A stretch of 64,000 bases of DNA from a bacterium (GTDB lineage Bacteria > UBP15 > UBA6099 > JAJRTR01): positions 1-64,000 of the forward strand of contig JAJRTR010000138.1 in the NCBI GenBank assembly GCA_024278215.1. The letters are read 5' to 3'. The translations under genes and the position numbers were made by a program. The notes beneath the pieces are model-generated. The model saw only the letters and a list, made by a program, of their open reading frames with translations, had not been told where the DNA came from and searched no databases. Every line of letters begins with the position of its first letter. Position 1 is the stretch's first letter. This document shows positions 5,303-60,446 of the stretch, piece by piece.

Positions 5303-6448
5303 CTATTCTATCAGTTGACCTGTAATCTTATCATAATCTCTTTCGATCTGTCTCATAACCGGTTCAATGCTGAATTCCGCCGTTATCTTTTCTCTTGCCG
5401 CGCGACCGGCGGTCTCGCGCACATCACGCCTGTTCCACATTTTATACAGGGCTTCGGCGAACCCCTGTTCGTCTTTTTCCTGAACGAGGAACCCTGTTTT
5501 GCCGTCATCAATTATTTCCGGTATCCCCGCGTGAAGTGTGGATACGGAAGGAACGCCGAGTGAGCCGGCTTCCATAAGAACCGTGGGGGTTCCCTCCCTG
5601 TCGCCGTCGGGGGCGGTAACGGAAAACAACGCAAAAACATCCGCTGTGGAGATTGCGTCGAGAATATCTTTTCTGGGGCGATAGCCCATGAGCTGCACTT
5701 TCCTGCACAGTCCTTTTCGGGTGATTTCCTTTTGTATATTTTTTTCTTCGGGGCCGCTGCCGAATATCTGCAACACAGCATCCGGCACCTGACCGGCGAA
5801 CCGGGCAAAAGCGCGAATCAAATGTATCATGCCCTTTTTGGGCACCAGTCTGCCTACGGAAACAATTCTGAAACCGTCGCCGGCATCCGCATTGTTTTTC
5901 CGCTGTGGAACAAAAGCATTCGTATCTACGGCAAGGTGGTGGATACGCAATTTATGCGCGGGACATCCTGCTTCCCGGAGCCTGTCTCCCATGTCCCGGG
6001 ACAGCACGGATATGACAGCAGCCGATTCGAACATGGGTTTATATGCAGAACGATATTTGCGGTTTTCGAGGAAAGCGGAAGCGTCGATACCATAGAAAGA
6101 TACAATAAGCGGCAGGTTCGCCATGGCCGCAGTTTTCGCAATCGCAACGCCGACCGGTCCGTAGTGTGCATGAATGACAGCCGGCCTATTCTTTCTGAGT
6201 ATCCTCATGAAATAAGGTGAAAAGCTGAAGAAGCGCCTGATTTGCGTATTAACTTTCCTTTCAAGCAGCGGACTGTCTGCAAGGTTGTATATTGGAGAGA
6301 ATGGGAACTGCTCGATATTCCTCACAGGTTCATCCGTCAGTACAAAAGGATTGTAATCACAGTGGCCGGTTATCCTGTCATAGATGAAAGTCTCGGTTTT
6401 CCTGATAAAAGGGATAAGGACGTGTGCTACGGTGGGAGAAGCCTTCAT
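5303..6448 (-). CDS. glycosyltransferase family 4
   Basis: GT-B fold motifs: VGRLVPKKGMIHLIRAF, EGTPTVLMEAGSLGVPSVST. Confidence 0.9.
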   Translation of the reverse strand: MKASPTVAHVLIPFIRKTETFIYDRITGHCDYNPFVLTDEPVRNIEQFPFSPIYNLADSPLLERKVNTQIRRFFSFSPYFMRILRKNRPAVIHAHYGPVGVAIAKTAAMANLPLIVSFYGIDASAFLENRKYRSAYKPMFESAAVISVLSRDMGDRLREAGCPAHKLRIHHLAVDTNAFVPQRKNNADAGDGFRIVSVGRLVPKKGMIHLIRAFARFAGQVPDAVLQIFGSGPEEKNIQKEITRKGLCRKVQLMGYRPRKDILDAISTADVFALFSVTAPDGDREGTPTVLMEAGSLGVPSVSTLHAGIPEIIDDGKTGFLVQEKDEQGFAEALYKMWNRRDVRETAGRAAREKITAEFSIEPVMRQIERDYDKITGQLIE

Positions 6449-7599
6449 TTTGTTGTTCCCCCGCTGAGAACATCGTCATAGACGGCCTGCATGAGAGACG
6501 CGATTGTTTTTTCGTCGAAGTCGGCGACCCGGTTTCTCCCGGCGGCGACAAGGGCTGCGGCTTTGTCGGGATTATTGATAATAACCGCCAGATTGTCGGC
6601 CAGCGCCTTCGGGTTGCCGGGCTCGAAAAGCAAGCCGGAGACGTCATCCTCCAATATTTCGGCAGGGCCTCCCGCAGCCGCCGCCACAACCGGCACTCCC
6701 GCGGCCAGAGCCTCCAGCACCGCTATGCCGAACGGCTCTTCAAGTGCGCATAATGCAAAGGCGTCTGCCACAGAGAGCAGCCCGGCGGCATCTTCGACGT
6801 AACCCATGAAATCAATTATATCACGGACTCCGAGTTCGGACCTCAGTTGTTCGAGTTGCTTCCCGAGCGCGCCTGTGCCGGCTACCACGAAATATATGTC
6901 GTCGATACCATCGGCTTTCAACACCGCCGCCGCGCGCACAAGGGTTTGGACATCCTTCTCCGGTGCGAGGCGGGAGAGACACACAACCAGGAATCGGTCG
7001 GCGGGAATCCCGAATTCGCTTCTGATCCTGTCGATAGTTTTCTGTGTGTGGTTTGCTTTCCGGGGAATGTTGTCGACACAGATACCGTTGTAGACGACGA
7101 CGCCTTTGGTGTTGGGGATCGACTCCCTTTGGGATACGGCTGCCCTTACAGCCTCTGAAATGTAAATGGTTTTGCTGAGTCTGCGGTTCATTCTTGTGTA
7201 GATGGTCGTGTAGAGCGAGCGCAGGAAAGGGGAGGATATGCCAGTGTGCCTGTCGTTGATAAAATGGCGTGTGGAGACGACAGGGGTACGTGTCCGAGAT
7301 GCCGCCGCGATAGAGATAAAAGTGCTTATGCCGAGATGCGCATGTATCAGGGCGATATTCTTTTCCGCGATTATTTTTTTCAGTTTTAAAATAGATTTAA
7401 TATCGTATAAAGAGTGGAAGGGAACATCGACGGCCTCGATGCCGTATTTTTCGAGCAGGTCAAACAAACGGGCTCCATAAGGAGCAGCCACGATCGGGAT
7501 ATAGTTTTCAGGATCGAGAGACCTCGCCGTGGAGAGAACACTCTGTTGTGTTCCGTAGAATTCAGAGAAACAGAGAGAGTAAAGAACCTTTTTTGGCAT
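6445..7599 (-). CDS. glycosyltransferase family 4 (likely start MPKKVLYSL, shorter than the ORF track entry)
   Basis: CLSRLAPEKDVQTLVRAA, EEPFGIAVLEALAAGVPVVAAAAGGPAEIL; the upstream extension in the ORF track overlaps the next gene. Confidence 0.9.
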   Translation of the reverse strand: MPKKVLYSLCFSEFYGTQQSVLSTARSLDPENYIPIVAAPYGARLFDLLEKYGIEAVDVPFHSLYDIKSILKLKKIIAEKNIALIHAHLGISTFISIAAASRTRTPVVSTRHFINDRHTGISSPFLRSLYTTIYTRMNRRLSKTIYISEAVRAAVSQRESIPNTKGVVVYNGICVDNIPRKANHTQKTIDRIRSEFGIPADRFLVVCLSRLAPEKDVQTLVRAAAVLKADGIDDIYFVVAGTGALGKQLEQLRSELGVRDIIDFMGYVEDAAGLLSVADAFALCALEEPFGIAVLEALAAGVPVVAAAAGGPAEILEDDVSGLLFEPGNPKALADNLAVIINNPDKAAALVAAGRNRVADFDEKTIASLMQAVYDDVLSGGTTK

Positions 7600-7607
7600 G
7601 TTGAATA

Positions 7608-9032
7608 TCAGAGGTCCATTCTCATGGTGGGACGATTCATGTCGACGGAAGACAGGAGATTCACCCACTCGGTATCCCTGGGTTCGTTTTCCTCGACAAA
7701 AAGAGCAGCCTGGTATATGCCCAGAAACATCACAAAAAATATAATGGGGCCGCGCACAAACATATACGCGAACATATTGACAATGCCGAACGCGACAATG
7801 CTGGAGAAAAGAGCAATATAGAGAGAATAATAATAGTGGTCCTCGGTCCTGGATATTGTTCTGATGATATGAATGTAGAAAGAGATAAATATCCACAGGA
7901 CAAGAAGCATTGCGGGCAGACCGCTCTCGCTGCCCACATGGAGGAAGATATTGTGGATTTCTCCGTATGTCGGTTCATCATAGACATCGGTGACATACCG
8001 GGGCATGTTGCCGAGTCCCACTCCAAGAATGGGATAAGCCATAATCGTATTCATGGCTACATTATACTGCTCGATACGGGTAGTGGAAGCTTCGTCGCTG
8101 ATCTTCGGGATAGACGCCACGCGCCCGAGATACCTTTCCGGCGCGAAGAGAGAAAAGATGATCATGAAGACGATCAGGACAGAGAAATACTTGATAAAGT
8201 TTACCATCCCCCGAATCTGAGCTGAAATAACAATTCCCACAATGCATCCAATCCAGGCACCCCTTGAAAACGTCAGCAGGAGTCCAACCACATTCAGTCC
8301 CAGAAACATCGAGTATAAAAGCTTTGTCCGCCTGCTATTTTCAGTAACGATAAGATTGAAAATGAGCGTGGTCGTCATTGCCAGGAATGCGCCGAGTGCA
8401 TTAAAGTGGCCGAATGTGCTGTAAATCCTCATGCCGGTATCGCCTGATGAAAGGTACTGATAGATACCCTGGAGCGACACCAACCCACTGACAAGCGCTA
8501 TCGTGTGTATGACAATATTCAACATGTTTCTTGTGCGTATTACAGATGCGAACAGGTAGTATGCGAAAATGAAGAATTCCACCCACTTCACGAACTCCTT
8601 CATGGACTTGAAGAGGGAGTCGGTGTTTACCGAGGACAGCAGAAGCCATAAAAGAAGCAGGAATATCGTTCTGTCCAGGAATGTTTTCCTCAGTCCGCTT
8701 TCTCTGCCGATTGCAAGACGAACGACATAGACAACGACAAGTACAATTATGTAGGCATCCGACGGAGTGAAATAGAATGGGAATGAAGGCACATAATAGT
8801 TGACCAGAGGTGCGACGAAAATAAAAAGAATAATAGAAAGTCTGAAATTGATTATGGTTATCAAGAGGACAAATATACTTCCCATGCCGATAATGGGAAT
8901 TAAGTTGTGGCGCAAGGTGTAGATATCCGGCAGATATATGCGTAATGCAAAGTCAAGCAGCAACATGAAGGCAATTATCGATAAGATGTAATAGGGGTGG
9001 GCAAGAGTTAATTCCTGATTTCGTTGCTTCAT
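7608..9032 (-). CDS. O-antigen ligase / polymerase-like polytopic membrane protein
   Basis: Many TM segments; LLTFSRGAWIG and GVGLGNMPRY...EIHNIFLHVGSESGLPA resemble the Wzy/WaaL family. Confidence 0.85.
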   Translation of the reverse strand: MKQRNQELTLAHPYYILSIIAFMLLLDFALRIYLPDIYTLRHNLIPIIGMGSIFVLLITIINFRLSIILFIFVAPLVNYYVPSFPFYFTPSDAYIIVLVVVYVVRLAIGRESGLRKTFLDRTIFLLLLWLLLSSVNTDSLFKSMKEFVKWVEFFIFAYYLFASVIRTRNMLNIVIHTIALVSGLVSLQGIYQYLSSGDTGMRIYSTFGHFNALGAFLAMTTTLIFNLIVTENSRRTKLLYSMFLGLNVVGLLLTFSRGAWIGCIVGIVISAQIRGMVNFIKYFSVLIVFMIIFSLFAPERYLGRVASIPKISDEASTTRIEQYNVAMNTIMAYPILGVGLGNMPRYVTDVYDEPTYGEIHNIFLHVGSESGLPAMLLVLWIFISFYIHIIRTISRTEDHYYYSLYIALFSSIVAFGIVNMFAYMFVRGPIIFFVMFLGIYQAALFVEENEPRDTEWVNLLSSVDMNRPTMRMDL

Positions 9033-9037
9033 ATCTA

Positions 9038-9925
9038 TTACGCGCCTTTATTATCCCCGGCAGCTGAATTCAATTCCCTGAGCAAAGGAAAAGTCAACTT
9101 CACGTTCAGCGATTCGCCTGTTATCAGTTCGCTTACGTCGACTTCGACACCCGCGCTGCGTAAAGCAATTACAATGTTGCGCACCAACTCCAGGCAGGCT
9201 TCCACCTTGCCGACCTGTGCAGGATCATATTTGAAACGTGGCCGGTTGTCGTCGATTTTTTCCAGGGTCTGAGCCCTCATCTTAAGAAATTCCGGCAATC
9301 CGGCGATTATATCTTCAGTCTGCTTTTCGTCCAGTTTTTCACGATATATTTTTTCCAGCAGTTCGAGTTGTTTTTTCTGGTTTGCCACCTGCGAGAGAAG
9401 CCTGGCGTGATCCAGAGTAATGAGTCTCGAGACAACAGCTTTTTTTATAACCTGCGGTAGTTGAAGCATCCAGAGCTTGGCCTTGATCGAGTCGACATCT
9501 TTGCCGACCCTGTCCGCGATCATCTGCAGGTCGTCGCCTTTCTCTCCGATCAGGCGGCCATAAGCTTCTGCTGTTTCGACCTCGTTCAGTTGCTCGCGTT
9601 GCAGATTCTCTATAAACGCGATTTCGATCATGTCCTGATCGTTAAGTGTGCGTACGATAGCAGGTATGGTGTTCAGGCCGACGATTTTACATGCCCTCAG
9701 CCGCCGTTCACCCGCGACGAGTTCAAAGCCGGTGCCGAACTTTCGTACAATCACCGGTTGGAGGACGCCCTGCTTTTCTATTGATTTCGCCAGTTCGTTG
9801 AGTCGCTCTTCATCGAAAAAGCGGCGGGGCTGATACGGATTGACCGAGATATTATCTACAGGTATCTCGACAACCGATCTCTTGCCTTCTTTTTCAATTA
9901 TCCCTTTGACAAATCGTTCAAGCAT
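9038..9925 (-). CDS. parB: ParB/Spo0J/Noc family DNA-binding protein
   Basis: VNPYQPRRFFDEERLNELAKSIEKQGVLQPVIVR...FELVAGERRLRACK...IENLQREQLNEVETAEAY; central HTH. Confidence 0.93.
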   Translation of the reverse strand: MLERFVKGIIEKEGKRSVVEIPVDNISVNPYQPRRFFDEERLNELAKSIEKQGVLQPVIVRKFGTGFELVAGERRLRACKIVGLNTIPAIVRTLNDQDMIEIAFIENLQREQLNEVETAEAYGRLIGEKGDDLQMIADRVGKDVDSIKAKLWMLQLPQVIKKAVVSRLITLDHARLLSQVANQKKQLELLEKIYREKLDEKQTEDIIAGLPEFLKMRAQTLEKIDDNRPRFKYDPAQVGKVEACLELVRNIVIALRSAGVEVDVSELITGESLNVKLTFPLLRELNSAAGDNKGA

Positions 9926-10201
9926 TCTGTTTTATCCACCGGGTCTTTGTTTTAAACATCCTGACTGTCGTATGAACCATTTTTACATCAGCAGGCAGAT
10001 GCGAAGAACACGAAGTCTCGAATAAAGCGCAGTCTCTCGAGGCGACTTCGCGACGGTCGGATTGTCGCTTATGTACATAATGCCATGTTTCAAAAAACAA
10101 AACAACACAAGATGCAGAACGGTCCAGGCGAGGTGCGATACCCCGCCAATCAATTTATGTATCCGTTCACAAGTAACTGTTCGCAACGGTACATCTGAGA
10201 T

Positions 10202-10280
10202 TCCTGGAATGCAACGACTGTGTCGTTGCAACTGTAAAGAAGTCGCATTTCGCAAAAACTGACGTTTTTGCATTCCAGGA
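10202..10280. repeat. 79-bp inverted-repeat element with internal hairpin
   Basis: Perfect 13-bp arms TCCTGGAATGCAA / TTGCATTCCAGGA; internal GCAACGAC-TGT-GTCGTTGC hairpin. Confidence 0.7.
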
Positions 10281-10530
10281 TTTTCTATTATCACCGTTAT
10301 ACTCAAAATCCGTGGCTTGTCATTTTGCGCGAAGCGAAGAATCTACAGGTGTTTAAAGTATTATTTTCAATGCTCCCCTGTGAACAGTTACCAATTTATT
10401 ATGTGTTTCGCCGTCTCTTCCGGACACAAGCCCCGGACGAGGCGTAGTGTCTTACGATTGAAATACTGCGCAAGATGGTAAAGAAATGCTGATAATGAGA
10501 TTGGTGGAAGCTGGAGCTTCCGGTTTCATA

Positions 10531-10555
10531 CGTTCCCAGGGTGAACCCTGGAAAC
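10531..10555. repeat. REP-like palindrome, family C (CGTTCCCAGGGTGAACCCTGGAAAC)
   Basis: Imperfect palindrome recurring at 18651-18674, 30742-30766, 40844-40867 and, with variation, at 53312-53336, ~54160-54181 and ~56981-57007. Confidence 0.7.
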
Positions 10556-10656
10556 AAGTAAAAAACCCCGAACTCCGGGGTCCTGTTCGGTTCCGGCTGT
10601 GCCGGGTTAGGAATAACCCGGGATATTTGTCTGATGCAAAACGGTCTGCCCGCCGG

Positions 10657-12900
10657 TTATCTTTTCAGCTTGACTCTCTTGCGCCGCTGTCGGCTTCCGT
10701 ATCCGTATCCTCCGTAGTAGTAATAATAGTAATAATCGGGACTGGAAGCTTCTATATTGTTCAGCGCGACACCGATGATGGGTGTCTTTGTGCTTTCGAT
10801 CATGTATTTAACCTGGAGCGCTTCGTCCCTGTTGATACGACCGGAGTTGATGACGAAAAGGACCCCGTCGAGAATTTGCGAAAGGACAACAGCGTCGATA
10901 ACGTGGATAGACGGCGGGCTGTCGAACATGATGATGTCCGCCTTTTTCTCGATGCATCTGAGGAATGCGAGCATTCTTTCGGATCGCAGAAGCTCGATCG
11001 AGTTTGCCGGAAGCGGCCCTGAAGGAATGATGCTGAGCCCCTTTATCGTCGATGGCTGGATAAGCCTGTCGACGACAACTTCCATGAAAGATTCTTTCGG
11101 CAGCCGACCACTCACCGAAAGGTCCGATACGGCAATTTCCGCTTCGAGCTCGCCTGTGAGGATCGAGCTGATGCCGAGAGAATTGTCGACACCGAACATG
11201 CGGTGGAGCATGGGCCTGCGAAGGTCGGTATCTATTATGAGAACTTTCGTGCCTTCCTGCGCCATCGAAATAGCGAGATTGGCCAGGGTAGTGGATTTGC
11301 CTTCGTCGGATTTCGAACTTGTAACCAGGAGCGTTTTAATAGGCGGGTCGAGACAGAACAGTTGCGTGAAGAAACTCAAACGCCTGTATGCTTCCGCTAT
11401 AGGAGATTTCAATGGAACGTCGGTAATCAACTTGTTGATCGTCTCCGCACTGTATGGGATGGAGCCGAGTACCGGCAGGTTAAGATAGTTCTTGACATCG
11501 TCGCTGGAGTGTATCGTTTCTTCCATCTCTTCGAGGAGGAACGCAAGCCCCAGGCCGAGAAGAAGACCGAGTGCCACGGCAATAATGATGTTCTTTTTCC
11601 TGTTGGGCTTAAATGGATTCTGAGGCACGATTGCTTTCTCGAAGATTTTCACTTTTACATCTCGTTGCACCTTTTCGATCATCGCCTGCTGATGCTGCTG
11701 ATAGAGCATGAGGAAAAGCTCTTCCGCGACCTCTTTTTCCCTGAGCAGCCTGTTGTATTCGTATTGCAACTCCGGGTACTTCAGCTGTTCCTGCTTAAGC
11801 CTGTCAATGATATTCGCCAACTGGGTTATTTTTGATTTGTCGAGGACGATCTGGACATTCATCTCGACAATGGTATCGCGTTCCTTGAGATATCCGTCCT
11901 GGTTGACAAGTTTGTTATTTATCACATCGCTGATTTCCTGCTCGCTTTGTTTTCGCAGTTCCTTGAGTTGCTGGTCGATCTGTCTGACCAGTGGATGTCT
12001 GGCCTTATATTTTTCCATCAGTGAAGCGCGTTTCACCTCGAGGTCGATGATGCTGGTCTCCATGTATTCAACTTTATTGTGAGTGTTTCTGTTGAGAAGC
12101 TGGGGGTCTTGCGCAAGTTTGATGGTCTGGTCCCGGAATGTGTTCTGGAGGTTGTCGAGCTTGATTTCAAGCTGTTTCAGGTCAATGCCCAGCTGCATTT
12201 TTTCGAGTTCGAGCGATGAGATTCGATCATTCCTGCTGATAACTTCCTGGTCGAGCAACACAATGCCGTGCTGTGTGTTGAATTCGAAGATGGCCTTTTC
12301 CTTTGAAGAGAGTACCCTCTCGGCGTTGTCCATCTGTTCTTTGATGTATTGCAGCGTGTCTTCCGCGGATTTCTCCATCAACTCGCGGCTGATCTCTTCG
12401 AAAGCTTCCGCATACTTATTGGCGACATCCGCGCATTCCCGGTTGTTGGAACCCTGCATTATGACTTCGATGATACCTGTGTCTTCATCGCTTCTTGCGA
12501 TAATCTGATCGAGCAGTTTCACACCCGCTTTCTCAGGTTCTTTGCGACCGAGTTTTATCGCCGCTCTCTCTGCGACCGGGATGCTCTTGAGCAGCCGGCG
12601 CTGGGTTTCAACTCCCAGCGGAGTGGATGAGCGCCGGGCTCCCTCGGTCAGCATAATCACAGTGGACGGTTGTTCGACAAGAATACGTGCCCTGGCCGAG
12701 TAAACCGGCTTTAAAATGATGAAATTTATCACTGCACTGGCCACTGCTGCTATCAGAACACAGAGCAGAATGACAAATTTCCGCTTCCAGATTATTGTTA
12801 TATAATCTCTGATTTCCAAGAATATCCACCGCCAGACACTCGACCCGGTTTGTGACTGCTGCACATCCGGGGAGTCAGGATAAACACTTGACCCATGCAC
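10657..12900 (-). CDS. Wzz-domain polysaccharide tyrosine autokinase (BY-kinase)
   Basis: N-terminal Wzz/coiled-coil region, Walker A TSSKSDEGKSTTLANLA, Walker A' VLIIDTDLRRPMLH, C-terminal tyrosine cluster DYYYYYYYGGYGYG. Confidence 0.95.
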   Translation of the reverse strand: MHGSSVYPDSPDVQQSQTGSSVWRWIFLEIRDYITIIWKRKFVILLCVLIAAVASAVINFIILKPVYSARARILVEQPSTVIMLTEGARRSSTPLGVETQRRLLKSIPVAERAAIKLGRKEPEKAGVKLLDQIIARSDEDTGIIEVIMQGSNNRECADVANKYAEAFEEISRELMEKSAEDTLQYIKEQMDNAERVLSSKEKAIFEFNTQHGIVLLDQEVISRNDRISSLELEKMQLGIDLKQLEIKLDNLQNTFRDQTIKLAQDPQLLNRNTHNKVEYMETSIIDLEVKRASLMEKYKARHPLVRQIDQQLKELRKQSEQEISDVINNKLVNQDGYLKERDTIVEMNVQIVLDKSKITQLANIIDRLKQEQLKYPELQYEYNRLLREKEVAEELFLMLYQQHQQAMIEKVQRDVKVKIFEKAIVPQNPFKPNRKKNIIIAVALGLLLGLGLAFLLEEMEETIHSSDDVKNYLNLPVLGSIPYSAETINKLITDVPLKSPIAEAYRRLSFFTQLFCLDPPIKTLLVTSSKSDEGKSTTLANLAISMAQEGTKVLIIDTDLRRPMLHRMFGVDNSLGISSILTGELEAEIAVSDLSVSGRLPKESFMEVVVDRLIQPSTIKGLSIIPSGPLPANSIELLRSERMLAFLRCIEKKADIIMFDSPPSIHVIDAVVLSQILDGVLFVINSGRINRDEALQVKYMIESTKTPIIGVALNNIEASSPDYYYYYYYGGYGYGSRQRRKRVKLKR

Positions 12901-40774: not shown

Positions 40775-40934
40775 ATTATTGATTCACCACTATTGCGTTG
40801 TCGCATCGACACCCGCACACCACTTTGCATAACATAATACAATGTTCCCAGGGTCCACCCAGGGAACGCCGAAACTGAAAGCTCCGGCTTTCACCATAAT
40901 ATTTTCGCGACAACATGTTGTCGCTTACGGCAAG

Positions 40935-58959: not shown

Positions 58960-59777
58960 GTTTTTATTATATATTATCCTTTTTCTTATGTAAATCAACG
59001 GTTTAATATATGAAGTTCGCCCTTCTATCCTTATTGCTCTCAGGTTGTGTACATGCTGTGTTTATACAAATATCCCAGTAAATATGCCAATATTTTGTTC
59101 ATGCCCGTTGCTTTTAATACCGGAATTGCGTTGCTGTTTTGGAAATAAGCAACAATGTTATCTTCTATTTATATGCACTGAATGAATATTTCTGCATCCG
59201 ACACCGAAATTCAGTATTGTTCACTAAATATATAGCTAAAGCAAGGCAAACAACAAGGTTGCCTTTGAGGGTTTATGAGTCAAAAAAACGCACGATCTGC
59301 AGCTCAACATTATATCTTAACGCAATAACATTACCAGGAAGCCATAAATGTATAATATGCTTATATCCCATACTGAATATGGAATATATAATATGTGTAT
59401 GTGAGTTAGAATCACATTGAATTACATGTTGTTGAAACGGAACCGGAACAACACTGTTGAATAATCAGCAGTGATATGTGAAAGAAGGGATCATTCTGTT
59501 TTTTTATGGAAGCTGTATATATTTTAATTCTGCGCAATATTGGCATACCAACATTGCGTAGAAAACAGCCGGTAAATATTTGACTGATGGCGGATTGTCT
59601 CATGAAACAGCTTGATGTACATTTCTTGTTGCGGTATTGTGTAAACAAACGACTATTGGTCGTGTTGTTAGTTTATGACTGTAATTAGCTCAGTCTTCAT
59701 TGCACTTTTTCGCGAATACTTCCTTTATTAATATGCTTTTCAGGATTTTCGTCCAGATACAAACAGGATGTTTCGAG

Positions 59778-59808
59778 TACCCTACCCTACCCTACCCTAC
59801 CCTACCCC
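59778..59808. repeat. (TACCC)6 microsatellite; reverse strand (GGGTA)6 is G-quadruplex competent
   Basis: Six uninterrupted 5-bp units plus one C in an otherwise AT-rich intergenic region. Confidence 0.95.
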
Positions 59809-60031
59809 ATTATAATATTTTGATGATAAGGCGTTGTTTTCTGCTGGTTTTTGTCTGATTTAATAATTTTCTACGTGCGAATCACACCATCTGAAAAAGG
59901 ATATTATGCTGCAAATATGTCTCATCTTATATCGCTTTACTATGTTTTTGGGCTCAACTGTTTGTTGTACCAAAATATGAAATGGCATTTCTGAAATAAC
60001 ATGATTCCTCCGATATTGGTATATTTATATA

Positions 60032-60047
60032 TGTTTCACGTGAAACA
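60032..60047. promoter_or_regulatory. parS-type ParB binding site TGTTTCACGTGAAACA
   Basis: Perfect 16-bp palindrome matching the bacterial parS consensus. Confidence 0.85.
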
Positions 60048-60446
60048 TTTGCAATTCAGCAAAAACAGGCGGTTAATCTCATTATTAGGCTTATTTTATG
60101 TTGTTGCAGGTTGTATTTATGATGTCAGGCTATTTTGCTTCTATTCACATATACTTGCCTATACTAATCCATTGTATTCAATGACACAGGCAAGTCTCTA
60201 ATACAGGATGACAGATGAGCGATGATAATTAAAGCATAAATATCAGCAGACAAAACCGCTATAGGGATATGCTCGAACAGTGCAATCATTTATGACAAAT
60301 AACAGATGTATGCAATTGAACAGCAATTAGTGTGCAAAAAGTATTGAAATAATGATGGAATAAGACTATCAATTACGGATATAATAATGATGGACCGGTG
60401 AAAAAAGAGGTGTGAAAGAGGGAAATCGTGGAATTGGTCGACAGAT

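Follow-up and report, generated by a model that had tools for sequence, protein, structure and literature searches.

A diverged ParB with CTP-binding motifs is linked to a BY-kinase gene in a polysaccharide operon of a small, uncultured and apparently ParA-less bacterial phylum

Results

The window analysed here, a stretch of 64,000 nucleotides, carries a parB gene that lies within an exopolysaccharide (EPS) operon and is linked to the gene of a BY-kinase, a tyrosine kinase of the ParA superfamily. The encoded protein, termed EPS ParB below, is a paralog that retains the CTP-binding motifs of ParB proteins and is without their parS-contact residues. We put at about even the chance that a repurposed, Noc-like CTP-switch ParB is paired here with the BY-kinase and ties polysaccharide assembly to the nucleoid.

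Layout of the gene cluster

The parB gene (9038–9925, minus strand) encodes a protein of 295 amino acids with CTPase, helix-turn-helix (HTH) and C-terminal alpha-beta-beta-alpha domains, and its scores of 117.6 bits for ParB_N and 69.1 bits for HTH_ParB are both far above the Pfam cut-offs. The next gene on the same strand, 5 bp further on, encodes a Wzy/O-antigen-ligase-type membrane protein (7608–9032; Pfam Wzy_C, 66.4 bits), and 8 bp behind it lies a gene for a family 4/1 glycosyltransferase (6445–7599) that overlaps a second glycosyltransferase gene (5303–6448) by 4 bp. The gene calls and spacing given for these four genes in a preliminary description of the locus were correct. Upstream of parB lies a gene for a fused Wzz-GNVR-BY-kinase of PCP-2a type (10657–12837, minus strand), identified with Pfam and NCBIfam models and by alignment across three families; homology places its start at TTG 12837, and a GTG at 12900 is open too. 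The protein carries Wzz, GNVR and AAA_31 domains (Pfam), scores 148 bits against the polysaccharide autokinase model TIGR01007 (cut-off 108), and combines Wzz and GNVR with a Walker A/A'/B kinase and a tyrosine cluster, as Wzc-type PCP-2a BY-kinases do.

The BY-kinase gene had been described as immediately upstream of parB; it is upstream on the same strand, but a 731-bp gap separates the two genes in this genome. The gap bears a strong intrinsic terminator on the minus strand (10562–10584), the first-ranked site of the terminator scan, and the BY-kinase transcript probably ends before parB here. The gap consists largely of dispersed repeats: two of its stretches have further copies in this genome, one at 10160–10405 (copies 85–92% identical in L124, L098, L054, L097 and L105) and one at 10440–10615, covering the terminator (copies ~82% identical at many loci of this genome), so that the gap looks like a secondary insertion. 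We nevertheless count this separation by repeats and a terminator against a kinase-ParB pair. Besides positions 10160–10615 of the window, dispersed intergenic repeats were seen at 40908 and in L054, L120 and L125, one of them with a perfect 16-bp palindrome, CGACAACATGTTGTCG. This palindrome (four copies in 845 kb) was considered as a binding site of EPS ParB itself and was rejected, as its flanks place it in a dispersed repeat.

Conservation of the linkage

Seven draft genomes of the phylum, all from one order, were compared, and this small number is also counted against the pair. EPS ParB is present in six of the seven, and in all six, which span three families, the linkage is kept as far as the contigs reach. 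In the three genomes of family f2 (G001, G003 and G004) the BY-kinase gene is separated by 18 bp from parB, which is followed at intervals of 3 bp each by the ligase and glycosyltransferase genes; in the third family (f3, genome G002) the BY-kinase is followed after 42 bp by parB and then the contig end, and in G006 the contig begins within parB and runs on into the ligase and glycosyltransferase genes. Neither the EPS parB nor its BY-kinase was found in G005, an assembly that is 80% complete and in 620 contigs. As the f2 genomes with full loci belong to one genus, the independent evidence amounts to three families. To the question, raised in the preliminary description, of whether parB stays in EPS operons or is a one-off insertion, with parB next to parA elsewhere, the answer is that the arrangement has been kept throughout the phylum. 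It is not a one-off insertion, and none of these genomes was found to have a parB adjoining a parA.

Gene order could also have been kept with no functional link, had parB been captured in the operon and then simply stayed there in a slowly rearranging phylum. The sample of only seven genomes and the upstream pfkB neighbour, which is kept as well, would suit this explanation, but we hold it to be improbable, since other neighbours do change between families (the genes past the first glycosyltransferase differ, and an adenosylhomocysteinase-like gene occurs in f2 only) and the kinase-ParB-ligase-glycosyltransferase core persists despite the repeat insertion in family f1 and identities of 33–65% elsewhere. 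The adenosylhomocysteinase-like gene of f2, recognised by eye, has pfkB on one side and the BY-kinase gene on the other and may belong to the same operon (L056, 6491–7771; L057, 11973–13253; L058, 6156–7436).

No further ParB of the EPS type was found at comparable similarity among 386 sampled genomes, in which the next-best ParB matches (E 3e-48) were ordinary rsmG-parA-parB genes, and outside the order no match to the kinase domain reached E<=1e-52. In addition, no ParB-like open reading frame was found in the short flanks of 30 comparator BY-kinase loci, some of which are second kinases from the same order. Literature searches returned no report of a parB within a BY-kinase or polysaccharide operon.

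CTP motifs, DNA-contact residues and the N-terminus of EPS ParB

EPS ParB has the ParB_N fold and the GERRxRA and ENxxR motifs of the ParB/Spo0J superfamily, together with the HTH and a C-terminal domain that is predicted to dimerise. In CTP-binding box I (GERRLRA, 9692–9712, minus strand) residues G72, E73, R74, R75, R77 and A78 are invariant in alignment A1, as are E106, N107 and R110 in the CTP-binding P motif (ENLQRE, 9593–9610, minus strand). The AlphaFold model (pLDDT 83.8) shows the full ParB architecture, including the C-terminal alpha-beta-beta-alpha domain.

The HTH (9395–9529, minus strand) has diverged. ParB contacts parS through Q162, R173, N178 and G201 (Caulobacter ParB numbering, used throughout; PMC7383237), and in EPS ParB these are replaced by L/I/A, V/M, A/K and D/E, respectively, with W in place of R181. 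Residues R173, N178 and R181 are present in 26/26 canonical control ParBs and changed in all five EPS ParBs aligned; they are retained in the rsmG-linked ParB paralogs. At the positions specific to the Noc binding site (Q173, K179, K184 and R201), EPS ParB has V/M173, K/R179, Q/K/H184 and D/E201. With its contact residues changed, EPS ParB is very likely blind to parS and probably to the Noc site too. Judged by its sequence, EPS ParB is very probably not the segregation ParB.

Comparison with Noc of Bacillus and Geobacillus gives a mixed picture. Both are ParB paralogs with CTP boxes, the nearest PDB structure to EPS ParB by sequence and by fold is apo-Noc (7nfu), and the K or R at 179 and, in f2, the K at 184 resemble the permissive residues of Noc. 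Unlike Noc, EPS ParB has V/M for Q173 and D/E for R201, is encoded with a BY-kinase, and does not reach the cut-off of the NCBIfam Noc model TIGR04285 (222 bits; cut-off 315), on which the rsmG-linked ParB scores higher (274 bits). We count this score against a Noc-like kinase partner. In a ParB tree, informative on the clade and not on its placement among other ParBs, the EPS ParBs form one clade on a long stem.

The protein begins with a predicted amphipathic helix, MLERFV[K/R]GIIEKEG (9884–9925, minus strand), which is invariant in three families save for one K/R exchange, while EPS ParB as a whole is 62–65% identical between families. Its hydrophobic moment of 0.74–0.82 places it in the top 2.4% of N-termini in a genome sample, and AlphaFold models a separate N-terminal helix at residues 2–10 with moderate confidence. 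In Noc, CTP-controlled binding to the membrane depends on an amphipathic helix at the N-terminus (PMC8429893), and the likeness of the predicted helix of EPS ParB to that of Noc is a lead and not a sign of class membership. The helix could instead be a degenerate ParA-type peptide, a point that weighs against the pair. The ParA-binding motif LG[RK]GL is absent from EPS ParB, and most canonical controls have it or a close form.

ParA, canonical ParBs and the origin region

Canonical ParA was not found in any of the seven genomes with a genome-wide Soj query, for which the best E-values were 1e-6 to 1e-9; the same query gave 1e-87 to 1e-158 in three control genomes. All ParA-like P-loop genes found in this genome proved, by neighbourhood or sequence, to be of other kinds: FlhG beside FlhF, CpaE, Mrp, CooC-like, NifH-like and ferredoxin-type MinD ATPases and BY-kinases. 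The absence of a parA near the locus, remarked on in the preliminary description, thus extends to the whole assembly, and the phylum seems to have lost ParA.

Two relatives, G001 and G003, have a separate assembled locus, mnmE-mnmG-rsmG-[parS]-parB-parB, in which rsmG is followed by parS and two tandem, divergent, canonical-type parB genes (L061, 6198–8883; L062, 4878–7563) and no parA stands at its expected place. Of the second canonical parAB whose presence was to be checked, these relatives therefore have a parB pair with parS and no parA. Contamination was rejected as the source of this locus, as the divergence between G001 and G003 is the same there as at the EPS locus. In five of the seven assemblies (G000, the genome studied here, G002, G004, G005 and G006) mnmG was not found, which reflects either incomplete assembly or binning around the origin or a true loss of the gene. 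To our knowledge mnmG is nearly universal, yet it is not found in this genome's assembly, and the mnmG-rsmG region is therefore probably missing from it; with that region probably unassembled, this genome may also carry a second parB.

The only perfect parS in the genome, TGTTTCACGTGAAACA, lies at 60032–60047, 50 kb from parB; the control pattern for the parS scan gave none at 0 mismatches. It stands within an AT-rich non-coding stretch of 1.4 kb (58999–60446) that coincides with a switch in GC skew from negative to positive and also contains a CCCTA tandem run. The parS on contig C36 of G001 has the same XerC/MerR/HTH gene neighbourhood and the same skew turn. Positions 58999–60446 are probably the oriC region and would be the site of action of the canonical ParB pair rather than of EPS ParB.

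These results bear on the explanation that the BY-kinase substitutes for ParA in chromosome segregation, with EPS ParB loading on the origin. ParA is absent, the kinase is a member of its superfamily, and one parS lies on the same contig at the GC-skew switch. However, parS binding is unlikely given the changes at all five residues discussed above (R173, N178, R181, Q162 and G201), canonical ParBs that have these residues adjoin parS in two relatives, and the ParA-binding motif is missing from EPS ParB. We therefore regard a ParA substitute as very improbable. The suggestion in the preliminary description that the locus is a genetically linked capsule-chromosome coupling system holds as far as the conserved linkage, the lack of ParA in seven genomes and the ParA-superfamily BY-kinase neighbour are concerned, but not for EPS ParB as the segregation ParB.

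Constraint on the kinase domain

The cytoplasmic kinase domain with its tyrosine cluster (10660–11520, minus strand) is 92% identical between families, versus 33–47% for the periplasmic half of the same protein. Its best 280-amino-acid window (92.9%) exceeds all 40 of 40 other G000–G001 ortholog pairs of that length (maximum 83.6%), in a sample drawn from about one-fifth of one genome and one-tenth of the other, in which the most conserved housekeeping proteins are sparsely represented. Third codon positions in the domain differ at 57%, which indicates strong purifying selection; recent transfer was rejected as the cause, given such divergence at synonymous sites. The second BY-kinases of G000 and G002 are 52% identical in the same domain. 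Some constraint in addition to ordinary co-polymerase function seems to keep the kinase domain fixed, and a cytoplasmic partner would be the simplest candidate. A basic C-terminal tail on the kinase was considered as a DNA-binding feature and rejected, as basic tails follow the tyrosine cluster in many other BY-kinases.

This constraint also bears on the main rival to a kinase-ParB pair, in which EPS ParB would locally regulate transcription of the polysaccharide operon in a CTP-dependent manner and play no part in chromosome dynamics. KorB and VirB are ParB-family regulators, and KorB is among the structural neighbours of EPS ParB, which is encoded inside the operon and has very likely lost parS specificity. 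Three family f2 genomes have a palindrome, GCAACAAATGTTGC, ahead of the first gene, but it is not common to the other two families, and regulation alone predicts neither the invariant amphipathic helix nor the extreme constraint on the kinase domain. We consider such a regulator rather unlikely.

A candidate kinase-ParB pair

The pairing of a dedicated ParB with the BY-kinase draws, in our analysis, on the linkage, the absence of ParA, the kinase constraint, the intact CTP boxes with changed parS-contact residues, the helix, the Noc top match and a precedent in Streptococcus pneumoniae. In this ParA-less species CpsD binds ParB, and the phosphorylation state of CpsD changes ParB mobility (PMC4574921; reviewed as CpsC/CpsD-ParB capsule-chromosome coupling in PMC7022226). 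The present locus likewise combines a ParA-less cell, a ParA-superfamily BY-kinase and ParB as its presumed partner. It is not the pneumococcal arrangement, since the pneumococcal ParB is canonical and binds parS, whereas EPS ParB is a diverged paralog encoded together with a fused kinase of Gram-negative type; as CpsD binds the only ParB of its cell, a locus in which the kinase has a paralog of its own would represent a variant. With canonical ParABS (Soj/Spo0J at rsmG) EPS ParB shares the ParB fold and CTP motifs, and the relatives keep the rsmG-linked locus; unlike it, EPS ParB has no parA beside it and neither LG[RK]GL nor the parS contacts. Like PadC and other orphan ParB-CTPase proteins, EPS ParB would be a CTPase switch outside a parAB operon (PMC12704722); PadC, unlike EPS ParB, recruits ParA to bactofilin. 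The main text of that 2025 PNAS survey of orphan ParB-CTPases mentions no polysaccharide, capsule, Wzz or tyrosine kinase.

In the proposed mechanism the dedicated ParB paralog would be the cytoplasmic partner of the adjacent BY-kinase, having kept the CTP clamp and C-terminal dimerisation domain and lost the reading of parS. Its amphipathic N-terminal helix would anchor it either at the membrane or at the kinase ring, and it would also bind DNA. The BY-kinase, a ParA-superfamily ATPase built into a Wzz co-polymerase, would cycle between phosphorylated and unphosphorylated states during polymer synthesis, and through physical interaction this cycling may alter the state or position of the ParB clamp. 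In these ParA-less cells, polysaccharide assembly could in this way be coupled to the position or the segregation of the nucleoid. A stronger version, which we advance only tentatively and think somewhat doubtful, is that the tyrosine kinase of the ParA superfamily and a parS-blind ParB-CTPase that co-evolved with it would constitute a dedicated switch with two nucleotides (ATP/phosphotyrosine and CTP). This operon-encoded pair, derived from ParA/ParB logic, would determine where or when polysaccharide is assembled relative to the nucleoid, in a phylum that has lost ParA.

The link between CpsD and ParB has so far rested on one ParA-less species, pneumococcus. A second, unrelated ParA-less lineage, in which a conserved cluster encodes both a BY-kinase and a ParB, is natural-experiment evidence that such a pair can be functional, and the locus offers a minimal kinase-ParB pair for biochemistry, with which the suspected link between coat and chromosome becomes testable.

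Finally, positions 1–414 of the window hold a CRISPR-like array, in which a ~36-bp repeat, GTCACACCGGCAGACGACACCCCGAACGATGGACGC, occurs six times at a spacing of 69–72 bp.
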